In this document: positions 5,041 through 45,732 of the stretch, one piece after another
Layout of the letters: each line of letters begins with the position of its first letter
Position numbering within the stretch: the first letter of the stretch is position 1
NCBI RefSeq assembly: GCF_900101335.1
Contig: NZ_FNKA01000002.1
Span: 310,001 to 374,000 of the forward strand
Origin: Quadrisphaera sp. DSM 44207
Lineage (GTDB): Bacteria > Actinomycetota > Actinomycetes > Actinomycetales > Quadrisphaeraceae
Reading direction: 5' to 3'
Length of the DNA stretch: 64,000 nt
Notes under the pieces: model-generated
Seen by the model: only the letters and a program-made list of their open reading frames with translations
Database searches by the model: none
Told to the model about the DNA's origin: nothing
Position numbers and translations under genes: made by a program

Positions 5041-5792
5041 TCAGGCCTGCTCGGGGCCGGGGCAGAGGGCCGGGGTGAGGTTCCAGTGCTCGATGCCGGG
5101 CACGCCGTGCTCCGCGCCGAGCACGCCGACGGACCCGGCGCCCAGGGGCAGGCGGGCGGCGTCCTGCGGGGGCAGGTCCAGCCAGGTGGCGGCGAGCACG
5201 CGCAGCGCGTGCCCGTGGCCGACGAGGACGACGTCGCCGTCGGCGAGGTGGGCGCGACGCCGTCGCGGAAGGCGCGCCAGTCGTCCCCGCTCTCGGCGCG
5301 GATCTCGTCGCTGGTGCGCCCCTCGTACGCGCCGTAGTCCCACTCGACCAGGTCCGGGTCGAGCAGGTCCGGGTCGAGCGCGCCGTCGGCGCCGGGGGTG
5401 AGCAGCCCGGCGAGCTCGGCGGTCAGCCGCGCCCGCTGCAGGGGAGAGGTGCGCACCACGGCGGGGGCGCGTCCGCGCAACAGCGTGCGCAGCAGCGCGG
5501 GCAGGGCCGCGGCCTGGGCCTGGCCGGTCTGATCGAGGGGGACGTCGCTGAGGCCGGTGTGGCGCCCGGTGGCGGACCAGGCGGTGCGACCGTGGCGCAC
5601 GAGCACCACCCTGCCCTCCTGCCTGCCCTCCTGCCTGCCCTCCTGCCTGCCCTCCTGCCTGCCCTCCTGCCTGCCCTCCTGCCTGCCCTCCTGCCTGCCC
5701 TCCTGCCTGCCCTGCTGGGGGTGCGCGCTCGGTGGCTGCTCGGCCGGTGGTCGTGCGCTGCTCGCGTCGGGAGAGGTGGCGTCGGGAGTCAC
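5041..5792 (-). pseudogene. Histidine phosphatase (phosphoglycerate-mutase-like) with frameshift/deletion
   Basis: The N-terminal half reads VVLVRHGRTAWSATGRHTG (the RHG phosphohistidine motif) through WRAFRDGV. The C-terminal half (DGDVVLVGHGHALRVLA, with the second catalytic His, through GIEHWNL) lies in a different minus-strand frame. The switch falls at about 5235-5260. In typical homologs about 20 residues (a GGES-type motif and a helix) separate these blocks, and here they are missing, so a deletion of roughly 60 bp that is not a multiple of three is likely. A GTG at 5790-5792 is a plausible start. It puts eight GRQE repeats before the RHG motif. Either a true pseudogene or an assembly error; both halves are otherwise intact. 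Confidence 0.7.
5611..5706 (-). repeat. 12-bp in-frame tandem repeat, 8 perfect copies (GRQE)n
   Basis: The plus-strand unit CTGCCCTCCTGC is repeated eight times without a mismatch, followed by a degenerate ninth copy. On the minus strand it encodes (GRQE)8 immediately before the RHG motif of the histidine phosphatase remnant. Perfect identity indicates recent slippage. It looks like a Kozlov-type coding minisatellite rather than a CRISPR, because there are no spacers. Confidence 0.95.
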
Positions 5793-13244: not shown

Positions 13245-14144
13245 TCAGAGGGGGTCGACGGTGTCCGCCTGGGGACCCTTCTGGCCGGCGCTGGAGGTGA
13301 ACTCCACCCGCTGGCCCTCCTCCAGCGAGCGGTACCCGCCCCGGTCGTTGATGGCGGAGTAGTGCACGAACACGTCGGGGCTGCCGTCGTCGGGCTCGAT
13401 GAACCCGAACCCCTTCTCCGCGTTGAACCACTTCACCGTGCCCGAGCCGGCCGCACCGCCACCGCCACCGCCGCCACCGCCACGGGGACGGTCGTAGCCG
13501 CGGTCGTCCCCGCCGCGGTCGTAGCCACCGCGCTCGTGGCCACCGCGACCACCGCGGTCGTCGTGGCCGCGCGCCGGGGCTCCGCCGGAGACCTCCACCC
13601 GGTCCGCCTGCGGGCCCTTCTGGCCGGCGCTGGAGGTGAACTCCACCCGCTGGCCCTCCTCCAGGCTGCGGTAGCCACCACCGCCGGCGATCGCCGAGTA
13701 GTGCACGAACACGTCGGGGCTGCCGTCGTCGGGCTCGATGAACCCGAACCCCTTCTCCGCGTTGAACCACTTCACCGTGCCCGAACCGGCCGCACCGCCA
13801 CCGCCACCGCCGCCACCGCCACCGCCACGGGGACGGTCGTAGCCGCGGTCGTCCCCGCCGCGGTCGTAGCCCCGGTCGTAGCCGCGGTCCCCACCGCGGT
13901 CGAACCCGCCGCGGCCGGCGGGGCGCTGGGGAGCACCGCCGACGGTCTCGACGTGGTCGGCCTGCAGCCCCCGCTGCCCCTGGCTGGCCTGGTACTCCAC
14001 CCGCTGACCCTCGTCCAGGCTGCGGAACCCGCCCGTGTCAGCGATGGCCGAGAAGTGGACGAAGACGTCCTGCCCCCCGTCGTCGGGCTCGATGAACCCG
14101 AACCCCTTCTCCGCGTTGAACCACTTCACCGTGCCCTGAGGCAT
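13245..14144 (-). CDS. Triple cold-shock-domain protein with RGG/Gly-rich linkers
   Basis: A 299-residue protein, while bacterial Csps are usually about 67-70 residues. Three complete cold-shock domains are visible at about 1-67, 121-186 and 233-298. Each starts [19 protein letters not shown] (RNP1) and has DVFVHxSAI (RNP2). Domains 2 and 3 are nearly identical and differ clearly from domain 1, so the last duplication is recent. The linkers (about 50 residues each) are rich in RGG, GYDR, GDDR and poly-Gly, resembling eukaryotic RGG RNA-binding tails. Likely role: multivalent RNA/ssDNA binding or RNA chaperone. ATG 14144 has AGGAGCAGAAGG just upstream. The 157-bp spacer before it could hold a structured leader. 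Confidence 0.92.
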
Positions 14145-14301
14145 CCTTCTGCTCCTGCATCCACGACTGCTCGCAACGACTGCTCGAACGGGCGGCGCCA
14201 CGTCCCGGCCGCGGCGTCCTGCCGGCGGCCGACGACCAGTGTCCTCCTCCTGCGGGGCCGGCGTCGCCACCCGCACCTGCAGTACCCGCTCGGAGGAGCC
14301 C

Positions 14302-26994: not shown

Positions 26995-29943
26995 TCAGGC
27001 GGCGCCGCGGGAGCCGACGGAGTAGGCGACGACGCCGCGGTCGACCAGCCCCGCGGCGCGGCGGGCGGTGCGCGCCAGGCGCTCGTCACCGGAGGCGGAG
27101 GCGACGCCGACGACCTGGTCGAGCAGGTCCAGCAGCTGCCGGCACCAGCGCACGAAGTCCCCCGCGGCCAGGCCCTCGGGGCCGGCGTCCAGGACGTCCT
27201 GCAGCTCCTGCCCGCGCGCCCACCGGTGCACGGGCCAGACCAGGCCGAGGTCCGGCTCCCCGGTGGGGGGCAGCTGGTGGGCCTCCTCCCCGTCGGTCAG
27301 CTGCGACCAGACGGCCACCGTGCGCTGCAGCGCGGCCCCGACCTCGGGGCCGCCGGGCATCCGGGCGTGCGGGGGCCCCTCCTCGCGGCGGGCCTCGTAG
27401 ACCACGGAGGACAGGACGGCGGCCAGGCCGGCGGCGTCGAGGTCGTCCCAGGTGCCCTCGTCCAGGCACTGCGCGACGAGCAGGTCCTTCTCCGCGTACA
27501 CGCGGCGCAGCCGCTCCCCCGCCGCGGTGACCTCCAGCTCCCCCCCGCGGGCCAGCGGGCGGGGGTCGGCGGCCTCGCCGGGGCGGTGCTGCGGGTCCGC
27601 GGGCGCGAGGTAGCCGAGCTCGACGAGCAGGTCGCACACCCGGTCGAAGGTGCGGGCGATGCTGCCGGTGCGCCCCTCGATGCGCGCGAGCAGCCCGCGG
27701 GTCTCCTTCTCCAGGCGCGACCACCGCTCCGCCCAGCGGGCGTGGTCGTCGCGCTCGGGGCAGCCGTGGCACGGGTGCTGGCGCAGGCTGCGCCGCAGCG
27801 CGGTCAGCTCGTCCACCCGGGGCCCGGCACCCCCGTCCGCGCCGCCGCCGGTGCCGGCGTCGCCGGTGGCGGCGCGGACGGCGGCGGCGCGCCCGCGCCG
27901 ACGCTCCGGCGGGCCCTGCCCGAGGGCGCCCTCGGCCAGGGAGGTGCGCAGCGAGGAGGCCAGGTCGCGGCGCGAGGCGGGGTTGCGCGGGTCGAAGGAG
28001 GAGGGCACGCGCACGCGGGCGACGGGCTCGACGGCCGTGGGGACGTCGCTGACGGTGATGCGGCGCACCTGCTTGTCGGCGGTCAGCACCGTCGGGCGCG
28101 GGCCCTCCAGGCCGGCGGCCAGACCGGGGTCGAGGACGACGGCGAAGCCGGCGCGGCGCCCGGCCGGCACCCGGATCACGTCGCCGACCCTCAGGGCCTC
28201 CAGCGAGGCGACGGCGTCGGAGCGGCGCCGGCGCGCGGCCGAGCGGTTCGCGTCCTTCTCCAGCTCGCCGATGCGCCGGCGGATCGCGGCGTACTCGGAG
28301 AAGTCCCCCAGGTGGCAGCGCATCGCCTCGGCGTAGCCGGCGAGCGCCTCCTCCTGCTTGCGGGCCTGGCGGGCCAGGCCCACGACGCCGCGGTCGGCCT
28401 GGAACTGGGCGAAGGAGGTCTCCAGCACCTCGCGGGCGCGCGAGCGCCCGACCTGGGCCACGAGGTTGACGGCCATGTTGTAGGTGGGCCGGAAGCTCGA
28501 GCGCAGCGGGTAGGTGCGGGTGGAGGCCAGGCCGGCGACGGCCTCGGCGTCCAGGCCCGGGGACCACAGCACGACGGCGTGGCCCTCGACGTCGATGCCG
28601 CGGCGCCCGGCGCGGCCGGTCAGCTGCGTGTACTCCCCGGGCGTGATGTCGACGTGGGACTCGCCGTTGAACTTCACGAGCTTCTCGAGGACGACGGAGC
28701 GGGCGGGCATGTTGATGCCCAGCGCGAGGGTCTCGGTGGCGAAGACGGCCTTGACCAGGCCCCGGGAGAACAGCTCCTCGACGACCTCCTTGAACGTCGG
28801 CAGCAGCCCGGCGTGGTGGGCGGCGACGCCGCGGGAGAGGCCGTCCACCCACTCCCAGTAGCCGAGGACCTGCAGGTCGGCGTCGGGGATGTCGGCGCAG
28901 CGGTCCTCGACGAGGGCGCGGATCTCCAGGCGCTCGGACTCCGTGGTCAGGCGCAGCCCCCAGGCGACGCACTGGCGCACCGCGGCGTCGCAGCCGGCGC
29001 GGGAGAACACGAACGTGATCACCGGGAGCAGGCCGGCGTCGTCGAGGCGCTCGAGGACCTGGGCGCGCGAGGGCCCGCTGGACCCCGAGCGCCCGGGGGG
29101 CCGCTTGGCCCCGCGCACCGGGCGGCGGCCGGTGGAGCCGCGCGCGGCCCACTTGTCGCGGTGCACGTCCTCGCGCGCGAGGCGCACCAGCTCGGGGTTG
29201 ACCTTCAGGCCGGAGACGAGCTCGGGCGCGGTGCCGGCGTCGGCCTCGACGGCGAGGCCGGAGTCGTCGGTGAACAGGTCCATCAGGCGGGTGCCGACCA
29301 TCACGTGCTGCCACAGCGGCACGGGGCGGTGCTCGGAGACGACGACCTCGGTCTGCCCGCGCACGGTGGCCAGCCACGCGCCGAACTCCTCCGCGTTGCT
29401 CACGGTCGCGGACAGGGAGGTGATGAGCACGTCGTCGGGCAGGTGGATGATCACCTCCTCCCACACGGCGCCGCGGAAGCGGTCGGCGAGGTAGTGCACC
29501 TCGTCCATGACGACGTGGCCCAGGCCCACCAGCGCCGGGGAGTCCGCGTAGAGCATGTTGCGCAGCACCTCGGTGGTCATCACCACCACCGGGGCGTCGC
29601 CGTTGACGGCGGTGTCCCCGGTGAGCAGGCCCACCCGCTCCGGCCCGAAGCGGGCGGACAGCTCCGCGTGCTTCTGGTTGCTCAGCGCCTTGATCGGGGT
29701 GGTGTAGAACGCCTTGCGCCCCGCGGCCAGGGCCAGGTGGACGGCGAACTCCCCCACCACGGTCTTGCCCGCCCCGGTGGGGGCGGCGACCAGGACGCCG
29801 CGCCCGGCCTCGAGGGCCTCGCAGGCCTGCACCTGGAAGGGGTCCAGGTCGAAGCCGAGGTCGCGGCGGAAGCGGGTCAGCTGCGACCGCTCCTCGCCGG
29901 CTCGACGGCGGGAGGCGGCGTACCGCTCAGCGGGCGAGGCCAT
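26995..29943 (-). CDS. helY: Ski2-like DEAD/DEAH-box RNA helicase HelY
   Basis: A 982-residue ATP-dependent helicase. Motif I is APTGAGKT, motif Ia TTPIKALSNQKH, motif II DEVH, motif III SLSAT, and motif VI QLTGRAGRRG; the Ski2/Mtr4-type C-terminal extension follows. An insertion with Lys/Arg-rich sequence (about 270-295) separates the RecA-like lobes. CRQHPCHGCPERDDHARW-like residues (HPCHGCPERDDHARW) form the conserved Cys/His motif of HelY. Proposed role: RNA processing or turnover. Start 29943 is 6 bp from TACGCT without an SD, and an earlier ATG seven codons upstream is less likely. Neighbours tatA/tatC are the standard actinobacterial synteny. Confidence 0.95.
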   Translation of the reverse strand: MASPAERYAASRRRAGEERSQLTRFRRDLGFDLDPFQVQACEALEAGRGVLVAAPTGAGKTVVGEFAVHLALAAGRKAFYTTPIKALSNQKHAELSARFGPERVGLLTGDTAVNGDAPVVVMTTEVLRNMLYADSPALVGLGHVVMDEVHYLADRFRGAVWEEVIIHLPDDVLITSLSATVSNAEEFGAWLATVRGQTEVVVSEHRPVPLWQHVMVGTRLMDLFTDDSGLAVEADAGTAPELVSGLKVNPELVRLAREDVHRDKWAARGSTGRRPVRGAKRPPGRSGSSGPSRAQVLERLDDAGLLPVITFVFSRAGCDAAVRQCVAWGLRLTTESERLEIRALVEDRCADIPDADLQVLGYWEWVDGLSRGVAAHHAGLLPTFKEVVEELFSRGLVKAVFATETLALGINMPARSVVLEKLVKFNGESHVDITPGEYTQLTGRAGRRGIDVEGHAVVLWSPGLDAEAVAGLASTRTYPLRSSFRPTYNMAVNLVAQVGRSRAREVLETSFAQFQADRGVVGLARQARKQEEALAGYAEAMRCHLGDFSEYAAIRRRIGELEKDANRSAARRRRSDAVASLEALRVGDVIRVPAGRRAGFAVVLDPGLAAGLEGPRPTVLTADKQVRRITVSDVPTAVEPVARVRVPSSFDPRNPASRRDLASSLRTSLAEGALGQGPPERRRGRAAAVRAATGDAGTGGGADGGAGPRVDELTALRRSLRQHPCHGCPERDDHARWAERWSRLEKETRGLLARIEGRTGSIARTFDRVCDLLVELGYLAPADPQHRPGEAADPRPLARGGELEVTAAGERLRRVYAEKDLLVAQCLDEGTWDDLDAAGLAAVLSSVVYEARREEGPPHARMPGGPEVGAALQRTVAVWSQLTDGEEAHQLPPTGEPDLGLVWPVHRWARGQELQDVLDAGPEGLAAGDFVRWCRQLLDLLDQVVGVASASGDERLARTARRAAGLVDRGVVAYSVGSRGAA

Positions 29944-30018
29944 GCCTCGAGCGTAGGTCAGCACCGCGAGCGGGGCCCCGCCAGGCGGGGGTGCTCCCGG
30001 CGCGGCCCCAGCGGCGCC

Positions 30019-41700: not shown

Positions 41701-43242
41701 TCAGGCGCCGCTGAGGGCGTCGACCAGGCTCGCGGCGTCCGGGCAGCGCTGCAGCAGCGCCTCGGTCGCCGCCCGCGTGCCGCGCAGCGGCTCGAGCATC
41801 GGCACCCGCTGCAGGGCCCCGCGGCCGGGCACGTCGAAGATCACCGAGTCCCAGCTGGCCGCCGCGACGTCCTTGCCGTAGCGGGCCAGGCACTGCCCGC
41901 GGAACCACGCGCGCGTGTCCTCCGGCGGCGCGCTCGTGGCCGCCTCGACGTCGTTCTCGTCCACCAGCCGCTCGACCGCGCCGCGCGCCCGCAGGCGGGA
42001 GTGCAGGCCCCGGGCGGGGTCGACGTCGGCGTACTGCAGGTCGATCAGCTCCAGGCGCGGGCTGCCCCACTCCAGGCCCTCGCGGTCGCGGAAGCCCTGC
42101 AGCAGGCGCAGCTTGGCGACCCAGTCCAGCCGGCCGGCGCAGCGCATCGGGTCGGCCTCCAGGTCCGTGAGCACCTGCTCCCACCGGCGCAGCACGTCAC
42201 GGGTCTGGGCGTCGGCGTCGTCCCCGTCTCGCTCGGCGACCAGCGCCGCCGCGGCCTCCAGGTAGCGCCACATCAGCTGGACGGCGGTCAGGCGGGAGCC
42301 GTCGGCCAGGCGCAGCAGCGCCGTCAGGGACGGGTCGTGGCTGACCGCGTGCAGGGAGGCCACCGGCGTCTCGAGGGCGACGTCCGGGGCCCGGCCGGCC
42401 TCGACGAGGTCGAGCACCAGGGCGGTGGTGCCCAGCTTGAGGTAGGTCGCGACCTCGCACAGGTTCGCGTCGCCGATGATCACGTGCAGGCGCCGGTAGC
42501 GGTCCGCGGTCGCGTGCGGCTCGTCGCGGGTGTTGATGATCGGGCGCTTGAGGGTGGTCTCCAGGCCCACCTCGGTCTCGACGTAGTCCGCGCGCTGGGA
42601 GAGCTGGAAACCGGCGACCTCCCCGCGCGGGCCGATGCCCACCCGCCCGGCGCCCGTGACGACCTGGCGCGCGACGAAGAAGGGCACCAGCGCCCGCACG
42701 ATGGCCGGGAAGGGCGTCGAGCGGGCCATGAGGTAGTTCTCGTGCGTGCCGTAGGAGGCGCCCTTGTTGTCCGTGTTGTTCTTGTACAGGCGCACCGGCC
42801 CCAGGCCCGGGGTCGCGGCGATGCGGGCGGCGGCCGTGGCCATCACCACCTCCCCGGCGCGGTCCCAGCGCACGGCGTCCAGCGGCGAGGTCACCTCCGG
42901 GCTGGAGTACTCCGGGTGGGCGTGGTCGACGTAGAGGCGGGCCCCGTTGGTGAGCACGACGTTGGCCGAGCCCGGGTCCTCCAGCTCGGCCCAGCTCTCC
43001 TCGCGCGCGGAGTCGGTCAGCTGGCTCGCGTGCGCGGCGGAGCGCGCGACCTCGAAGCCGCGCGCGTCGCGCAGGGGCGCCTCGTCCTCGTAGTCCCACC
43101 GGGGGCGGCCCCCGCGCGGGCCGAGCGGCGCGGCGTAGGCGGTGACCACCTGGCTCGAGAGCAGCACGGGGTCGGTCTCCGGGTGCCCCGGCGAGGAGAC
43201 CCCGTACTCGGTCTCGATGCCCATCACGCGGCGCACGCTCAT
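41701..43242 (-). CDS. dop: Pup deamidase/depupylase Dop
   Basis: A 513-residue PafA homolog. [30 protein letters not shown] opens the GS-like fold and includes the start of the Dop-specific segment ([22 protein letters not shown]). [47 protein letters not shown] and [31 protein letters not shown] follow. Converts the C-terminal Gln of Pup to Glu and removes Pup from conjugates. ATG 43242 is 8 bp from TAGGCT (minus). Divergent from the DUF3054 gene. Confidence 0.97.
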
Positions 43243-43968: not shown

Positions 43969-45732
43969 TCAGAGGTACTGGCCGGTGCCGTCCACGGTGT
44001 CGATCGCGCGACCGGGCTCGGAGCCGGACTTGCCCTGGATGATCGTGCGGATGTAGGTGATCCGCTCGCCCTTCTTGCCCGAGATGCGCGCCCAGTCGTC
44101 CGGGTTCGTCGTGTTGGGCAGGTCCTCGTTCTCCTTGAACTCGTCCACGCACGCCGCGAGCAGGTGCTCGATCCGGATGCCGCGCTGTCGCGTGGTCAGC
44201 AGGTCCTTGATCGCCATCTTCTTCGCGCGGTCGACGATGTTCTGGATCATCGCGCCGGAGTTGAAGTCCTTGAAGTACAGGACCTCCTTGTCGCCGTTGG
44301 CGTACGTGACCTCGAGGAACTGGTTCTCCGGGGTCTCCGCGTACATCCGCTCCACGGTGCGCTGGATCATCGCCGTGGCCGTCGCGGTCGGGGACCCGCC
44401 GTGCTCGGCGAGGTCGGAGGGGTGCAGCGGCAGGTCCGGGGTCAGGTACTTGGCGAACACGTCGCGCGCCGCCTCGGCGTCCGGGCGCTCGATCTTGATC
44501 TTCACGTCGAGGCGGCCGGGCCGCAGGATCGCCGGGTCGATCATGTCCTCGCGGTTCGAGGCGCCGATGACGATGACGTTGTCGAGGCGCTCGACGCCGT
44601 CGATCTCCGCGAGCAGCTGCGGCACGATCGTCGTCTCCACGTCCGAGGAGACCCCCGAGCCGCGGGTGCGGAACAGCGACTCCATCTCGTCGAAGAAGAC
44701 GACGACCGGCGTGCCCTCGCCCGCCTTCTCCCGCGCCCGGGCGAAGATCAGGCGGATGTGGCGCTCGGTCTCCCCGACGTACTTGTTCAGCAGCTCCGGG
44801 CCCTTGATGTTGAGGAAGTAGCTGCGCACCTCCGACAGGCCCTGCCGCTCGGCGGCCTGCGTGGCCAGGGAGCGCGCCACGGCCTTGGCGATGAGGGTCT
44901 TGCCGCACCCGGGAGGGCCGTAGAGCAGGATCCCCTTCGGCGCCTTCAGGCCGTGCTCGCGGTACAGGTCCGGGTGGGCGAACGGCAGCTCCACCGCGTC
45001 GCGGATGGCCTCGATCTGCGAGCCGAGGCCGCCGATGTCGGCGTACTCGATGTCGGGGACCTCCTCGAGCAGGAGCTCCTCGACCTCCGAGCGGGGCACG
45101 CGCTCGAACACGACGCTCGACCTCGGGTCGAGGTTGAGGGCATCGCCGACGCGAGGCGGGGCCTGCTGCAGCGGCGCGGCCAGGCGCACCACGCGCTCCT
45201 CGTCGGCGTGGGCCAGGACGAGCGCGCGGCCGTCCTCGAGCAGCTCCTTGAGGGTGACGACCTCGCCGATGCGGTCGTAGGTGCCCGCGGCGACGACGTT
45301 CATGGCCTCGTTGAGCAGCACCTCCTGCCCGTGCCCGAGCGCCTGCGCCGCCACGGCGGGGCTGACGGCGACCCGCACCTTGCGCCCGGCCTGGACGACG
45401 TCCGCGGTGCCGTCCTCGTGCAGGGACAGGAACGTCGCGTACCCGCTGGGCGGCTGCGCCAGGCGCTCGACCTCGGCCTTGAGCTCGACGAGGCGCTCGC
45501 GGGCCTCGGTCAGGGTGCGCACCAGCCGGTCGTTCTGCGCGGTGGACGCGGTGAGCTGGCGCTGCAGCTCGGCCACCTCGTCCTCCAGCGCGCGCAGCCG
45601 GTGCGGGGACGTCGCGAGCCGGCGGCGCAGGACGCTCAGCTCCTCCTGCATCGCCCGCTCCGAGCGGCCCGAGGGCTGCGGGCCGAGGTCGGCGGGTTGG
45701 TCGCGAGGGTGGTCGTGGGGGTGGTCGGTCAT
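43969..45732 (-). CDS. mpa: Proteasome-associated AAA ATPase Mpa/ARC
   Basis: A 587-residue ring ATPase that unfolds pupylated substrates. Order: N-terminal coiled coil (about 27-95, [20 protein letters not shown] then [15 protein letters not shown]) that binds Pup, double OB region (about 95-240), AAA domain with Walker A GPPGCGKT, Walker [13 protein letters not shown], and sensor [20 protein letters not shown]. The C-terminal tail ends GQYL, the activator motif that docks into the proteasome alpha ring. GGGAGGT precedes the ATG. It lies 52 bp downstream of trmI. Confidence 0.97.

Follow-up and report, generated by a model that had tools for sequence, protein, structure and literature searches.

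Bacterial cold-shock proteins (Csps) hold one cold-shock domain (CSD) as a rule, as stated in PMC7825780 and PMC4863620, whereas one open reading frame in the 64,000-nt stretch of Quadrisphaera sp. DSM 44207 analysed here (the window) encodes three such domains, or beads, joined by two long linkers. Is this three-bead protein a genuine gene product, what might it do, and how did two of its domains come to resemble each other so closely? The frame runs on the minus strand from an ATG start and its translation is a product of 299 residues, divided as follows:

13245..14144, minus strand: gene of the three-CSD protein, 299 codons plus stop (translation; three Pfam CSD matches)
13944..14144, minus strand: CSD 1, residues about 1-67 (Pfam; AlphaFold strands at 3-67; motifs KGFGFI and VFVHF)
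13785..13943, minus strand: linker 1, residues about 68-120 (45% Gly, 17% Arg, four RGG, poly-Gly written in GGC/GGT codons)
13587..13784, minus strand: CSD 2, residues about 121-186 (Pfam; AlphaFold; motifs KGFGFI and VFVHY)
13446..13586, minus strand: linker 2, residues about 187-233 (46% Gly, 17% Arg, five RGG)
13251..13445, minus strand: CSD 3, residues about 234-298 (Pfam; AlphaFold; motifs KGFGFI and VFVHY)

The first-pass annotation had read three CSDs in one chain from the letters of the sequence, and two kinds of evidence bore this out. Pfam PF00313 (CSD) matched three stretches of the 299-residue protein, for a total of 286.8 bits, and an AlphaFold2 model built from a seven-sequence alignment contained three five-stranded barrels, with pLDDT of about 60-90 in 10-residue blocks (mean pLDDT over the whole model 66.8, pTM 0.33). 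The best NCBIfam models for the whole protein were CspE and CspA. By sequence, each bead was the best-matching stretch for at least one solved Csp, and by structure the bead aligned by Foldseek matched CspA structures with a TM to target of 0.90-0.92; CspE and CspB were matched as well. The top-scoring Foldseek match was a three-CSD fragment of Drosophila Unr (CSD789), but its overall TM of just 0.19-0.25 limits the likeness to the fold of the bead. Every domain is a complete CSD and its RNP motifs are intact, as in the bacterial Csps CspA/CspE and B. subtilis CspB (PF00313), and since KGFGFI and VFVH[FY] are present in every one, all three look competent to bind, as far as motifs can tell. 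The protein as a whole, with three CSDs, two linkers and 299 residues, falls outside the classical single-domain Csp of one CSD, little else and about 67-70 residues.

The stop-free frame extends upstream to 791 codons, overlapping in another frame a hydrolase gene on the same strand. The start used here is supported by the MPQG beginning kept in relatives, namely in all six genomes of genus g4 of the same family, in Geodermatophilus obscurus and in Klenkia marina, and by AGGAG ahead of the start codon:

14145..14160, minus strand: likely ribosome-binding site, contains TGCAGGAGCA (upstream sequences compared by eye)

TGCAGGAGCA directly precedes the start codon here, in G. obscurus (L153) and in Klenkia (L034), and is absent from genus g4, whose genes have a conserved leader of their own, different in sequence, at that place. 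The shared TGCAGGAGCA could hint at transfer or common ancestry with Geodermatophilaceae. Neither a sigma-70-like promoter nor a terminator was called between 12900 and 14500, which is weak evidence in a 77% GC genome, and no Rfam element matched across the 64-kb window at gathering scores.

A carbon-nitrogen hydrolase gene lies 157 nt upstream on the same strand with a MerR regulator beyond it, and a P450 gene follows downstream on the opposite strand. Apart from the CSD frame and its antisense, none of the window ORFs in 7-21 kb was matched in 16 related loci (about 1.5-4 kb of flank on each side), so genomic context gives no support to any particular pathway. Farther off in the window, a 12-bp repeat, CCTGCCCTCCTG, occurs nine times in near-perfect form (98% matches) at positions 5610-5717. 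A DEAD/DSHCT helicase gene at 26995-29964, some 13 kb away from the three-CSD gene, is presumably Mtr4/Ski2-like, going by its domains, and the ORFs adjoining it we take to be TatC/TatA-like. Genes for a Pup-ligase family protein (41701-43242) and a proteasomal AAA ATPase (43969-45732) form the usual actinobacterial Pup-proteasome neighbourhood. The 3.2-Mb genome, in 4 contigs, carries three single-CSD genes besides the three-CSD gene; since these are retained, the array supplements the ordinary Csps.

A survey of CSD number per protein in related genomes, as the first-pass annotation had proposed, turned up three-, four- and five-CSD proteins. We define type A by an MPQG start, three full CSDs in one frame and, between these, two linkers rich in Arg/Gly and 33-58 residues long, a description that fits the proteins of this genome (G000), of 6/6 genus g4 genomes and of G. 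obscurus. The six g4 proteins are 71-73% identical to that of this genome. Among 13 genomes of the family, the three-CSD protein is present in seven, this genome and the six of g4. All four genomes of genus g3 carry a different, four-CSD array, its frame interrupted in G004, and both genomes of genus g2 (90% and 76% complete) have single-CSD genes only, from which we conclude that the three-CSD protein is probably dispensable within the family.

At the level of the order (297 genomes sampled), a profile search at E <= 1e-45, a cut-off blind to the four-CSD arrays of g3, found seven genomes, all in two of 95 genera (this one and g4). In a sample of the class (394 genomes of 138 genera), seven genomes from six genera matched the profile at E <= 1e-33. 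A direct look at seven genomes detected three-CSD frames in G323 and G372, outside the profile list; the class total of at least 9 is thus a lower bound, and the profile search underestimates. In the sampled family f47, 5/5 genomes had at least one multi-CSD frame. G372 holds both a three-CSD frame and a close-packed four-CSD frame (C253:107177-108097), so that at least two paralogous kinds of multi-CSD protein exist.

Five named genomes, a non-random sample picked from matches of the three-CSD protein search, were also tested. A single frame holds three CSDs in G. obscurus DSM 43162 and five in K. marina (L034, 3416-4771, a protein of 452 residues), while Kineococcus rubinsiae and two Blastococcus species gave single-CSD matches only. 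In K. marina, VRFFN replaces VKWFN in three of the five CSDs. Other actinomycetes encode three- or four-CSD proteins, and the multi-CSD loci of actinomycetes comprise L034, L131-L137, L153, L114-L117, L176 and L180. A distinct layout, type B (L114-L117, L135, L136 and G372), has four CSDs, the first three close-packed and the fourth behind a longer linker; its CSDs score lower, about 57-80 bits, apart from a partial match in G004 that scored 31. Among 72,556 plasmid records, two matched at E <= 1e-20, each over 22-23% of the query, the extent of one CSD. The earlier statement that bacterial Csps almost always hold one domain stands as a rule, but multi-CSD proteins occur in other genomes too.

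As cut for the composition analysis, the linkers measured 53 (linker 1) and 48 residues (linker 2). AlphaFold2 gave pLDDT under 50 to residues 72-116 and 188-229, and on this low-confidence prediction the two linkers are probably disordered; with nine RGG between them they make up a disordered RGG-rich region, disorder being judged solely by pLDDT. Each linker contains seven RG, and net charge is +2 in linker 1 and +1 in linker 2. RGG occurred nine times against a mean of 3.4 in shuffled sequences (P = 0.0007) and [YF]DR six times against 0.13, P values that overstate independence because the two linkers are in part copies of each other. Gly and Arg make up 45-46% and 17% of the linkers but 9.6% and 9.1% of 34 further ORFs of the window, taken from rough gene calls, the richest of which had 2 RGG per 50 residues. 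A GYDRG-like pattern was matched seven times in the whole genome, four times within the three-CSD gene; the other three matches are isolated and lie outside repeated RGG tracts. These results uphold the earlier description of the linkers as rich in RGG, GYDR and poly-Gly and its comparison with eukaryotic multivalent RNA-binding proteins.

Which of these properties do relatives share? Linkers of genus g4 differ in sequence, yet contain 24-43% Gly and 12-16% Arg and have net charges of +2 to +3; those of G. obscurus are RG/RD-rich, with net charges of +6 and +5. All 16 linkers of the eight type-A proteins are basic (+1 to +6) with 12-33% Arg, despite their diverged sequences, and the CSDs of all eight carry a net negative charge (-4 to -7). 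Tyr and Phe are missing from linker 2 throughout the six g4 genomes, so that, in spite of the six [YF]DR of the present protein, an aromatic-Arg sticker pattern is not conserved. The conserved feature is acidic beads on basic linkers; the tyrosines vary.

What could such a protein do? With moderate confidence, we propose a multivalent chaperone of single-stranded RNA, possibly also of ssDNA. CSDs recognise single-stranded RNA or DNA and are not strict about its sequence (PMC7825780), and RNA binding, chaperone activity and a role in stress would be expected here by analogy with the CSD family. The protein has three domains with intact RNP motifs, probable linker disorder and a three-bead layout kept among its relatives. 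Each of the three CSDs would hold a short unpaired stretch, and the two linkers, each some 50 residues long, flexible, rich in Gly and weakly basic, would let the beads bind one long RNA with avidity, or bridge two RNAs. Tethered in this way, the beads could hold an mRNA open and covered more effectively than one Csp on its own.

RNA-binding beads and Arg-rich disordered linkers are also the usual ingredients of condensates. The protein might accordingly be a scaffold whose RGG/GYDR linkers and three beads phase-separate with RNA, the resulting bodies storing or protecting mRNA in cold, drying or starvation, a reading that we regard as possible but unlikely, although condensates would be a reasonable complement to the chaperone activity proposed above. 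The excess of RGG and [YF]DR over same-composition shuffles agrees with it, as does the plant CSD protein AtGRP2, which forms droplets in vitro that are abolished on removal of arginines (PMC13261584). In the same study, however, the droplets were dispersed by RNA and deletion of the Gly-rich domain had little effect; droplets that need arginines and not the Gly-rich domain support a role of Arg, not of poly-Gly. Net linker charge is moreover just +2 and +1 here, and linker 2 is without Tyr/Phe throughout g4 (6/6 genomes), so that an Arg-Tyr mechanism like that of FUS is not conserved.

Less probable still is that three ordinary Csps merely share a chain, with linkers that are neutral filler generated by GGCGGT slippage in a 77% GC genome and that are perhaps cut to free the domains. 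This would account for the poly-Gly, which is mostly alternating GGC/GGT, and for linkers that differ by 6 nt, one GGCGGT unit, within the tract they share; a window GC of 0.769 and the variation of linker sequence and length between genera are also in keeping with it. Neutral filler would not, however, be expected to retain Arg enrichment and basic charge in 16/16 linkers of eight proteins despite differing sequences, nor an order of RGG and [YF]DR beyond what composition provides, nor a count of three beads in 8/8 proteins.

The domains of the putative multivalent chaperone are not equally related to each other. Unit 2 (linker 1 plus CSD 2) and unit 3 (linker 2 plus CSD 3) are identical at 300 of 333 ungapped columns (90%), with 33 mismatches and in-frame length differences (354 vs 339 nt), and the DNA of CSD 1 is 79-80% identical to that of CSDs 2 and 3. 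Domains 2 and 3 had been called nearly identical at the DNA level; this is apt for a 229-nt core of the repeat (92% identity) and too strong for the full 333 columns, where identity is a mosaic. A tract of about 170 nt contains one mismatch and one 6-nt indel (GGCGGT, one repeat unit), while windows outside it are 78-92% identical, and the longest identical run between the two copies of the tract is 89 nt (permutation P = 0.001). The copies, with coordinates derived by hand from the alignment, are:

13698..13871, minus strand: near-identical tract, copy 1, end of linker 1 and first half of CSD 2
13359..13526, minus strand: near-identical tract, copy 2, end of linker 2 and first half of CSD 3

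Units 90% identical are a typical place for an assembly to fail, but the worry that a single- or two-CSD gene had been wrongly duplicated, raised in the first-pass annotation, can be put aside as extremely improbable: relatives speak against it, the same layout with diverged domains being found in seven genomes of two genera and in G. obscurus DSM 43162, and the units differ by 33 mismatches and in their in-frame lengths (354 vs 339 nt) in a genome of 4 contigs.

Codon choice provided a further measure of this likeness. At sites where both domains have the same residue and a real choice of codon exists, domains 2 and 3 (D2 and D3) of this protein shared the codon in 23 of 31 cases; the codon usage of 13 window ORFs, which served as the standard for all genomes, predicts 15.3. 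Corresponding matches were 20/29 to 23/27 in the six g4 proteins and 23/29 in G. obscurus, where about half was expected; matches between D1 and D2 were also high (17/25) in two g4 genomes, G011 and G012. Codon bias as the sole source of the D2/D3 likeness was rejected on the figure of 23/31 against 15.3 and on a comparison of the single-CSD gene csp1 with D1-D3, which gave just 7/23, 11/22 and 9/23, at or below expectation. Same-position D2 codons matched between genera at 16/26 to 18/27 with g4 and at 18/25 with G. obscurus (0.62-0.72), values that overlap those within proteins and so argue against a simple story. Same-position D1 and D3 codons were near expectation between genera, at 10/25 to 14/26 with g4 and at 16/28 and 13/28 with G. 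obscurus.

A DNA tree was built from 18 domains of six of the eight type-A genomes, leaving out G010, G012 and the domains of types B and C. D2 and D3 of this genome emerged as sisters (99/99), the D2s and D3s of g4 grouped together (97/95), and monophyly of all D3s from this genome and g4 was rejected (AU P 0.0007). Domains of G. obscurus had no resolved placement, and 8 of the 15 inner branches were open. The grouping of D2 with D3 indicates that their homogenisation took place at least twice, in separate lineages; in G. obscurus only the codon match points that way. The distance between D2 and D3 here, about 0.13 per site, is similar to that of D1 between g4 species (about 0.14) and exceeds that of D3 between g4 species, so the last large event was probably not recent, although the central near-identical tract may be younger than the rest.

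Domain edges are shared as well: in the alignment, inspected by eye, ADTV lies near the end of both D3s and a VG-AP junction follows D1. Together with the mosaic identity, these edges make gene conversion in a long-established three-bead gene more likely than an independent D2-to-D3 duplication in each lineage, the alternative account. The likeness of domains 2 and 3 would then reflect conversion, or an older re-duplication, between repeat units at a constant count of three, which fits the sequences better than a growing array. Fresh expansion was rejected as the main reading, and the earlier suggestion that the array may still be expanding is not supported, given a count of three in 8/8 type-A proteins, the mosaic identity, the D2-D3 pairing repeated within g4 and a D2-D3 distance like that of D1 between g4 species.

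To place the proposed multivalent chaperone among known proteins, we compared its architecture with others built from CSDs. The arrays of K. marina and other actinomycetes are also tandem CSDs, mostly with Arg/Gly- or Arg/Asp-rich linkers; they differ in having three to five domains and, in type B, in close-packed CSDs 1-3 with a long linker before the last only. In a two-CSD frame from Rhodospirillaceae (L091), the domains are joined by about 40 residues that lack RGG. Several CSDs per chain are likewise found in UNR/CSDE1, but the overall TM to Drosophila Unr CSD789 is low (0.19-0.25), and Unr, whose CSDs pack against each other, is not known to have RGG/poly-Gly linkers. Caulobacter crescentus CspD, induced in stationary phase, also departs from the single-domain rule of bacterial Csps, with two CSDs where the present protein has three (PMC4830024). 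Eukaryotic AtGRP2 and dinoflagellate proteins combine a CSD with a Gly-rich region, as here (PMC13261584; PMC4863620); in these a single CSD is followed by a Gly-rich C-terminal part, with no repeat of the bead and, in AtGRP2, with zinc knuckles in addition. PMC4863620 also describes an atypical dinoflagellate protein in which three CSDs accompany an RRM. The CSD structure of AtGRP2 (8tg0) was among both the sequence and the Foldseek matches of our protein.

Among the papers listed by searches of the literature, mostly open-access, we noticed none on bacterial proteins of three to five CSDs or on Arg/Gly-linked bacterial CSDs. Sequence databases probably carry multi-CSD proteins under the name cold-shock protein. 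What appears new is three to five CSDs on Arg/Gly linkers in bacteria; two-CSD bacterial proteins and Gly-rich-tailed eukaryotic CSD proteins were known.

Taken together, these proteins contrast with the single-domain rule of the review literature, since bacterial proteins of three to five CSDs exist and are conserved in at least one genus. The broadest reading, tentative and in our view rather doubtful, is that proteins of 3-5 CSDs on disordered Arg/Gly linkers arose, partly independently, in several actinomycete lineages. They would be the bacterial equivalent of the Y-box/UNR mRNP proteins, packaging mRNA and condensing with RNA when cells face cold, drying or radiation, and their beads would have been homogenised in each lineage. 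The likeness of the repeat units also resembles concerted evolution within one gene. The finding opens the question whether bacteria assemble mRNP-like bodies from Csps, and the related organisms offer a natural series of bead numbers in which the effects of tethering and of disordered linkers on a well-understood RNA-binding domain may be tested.
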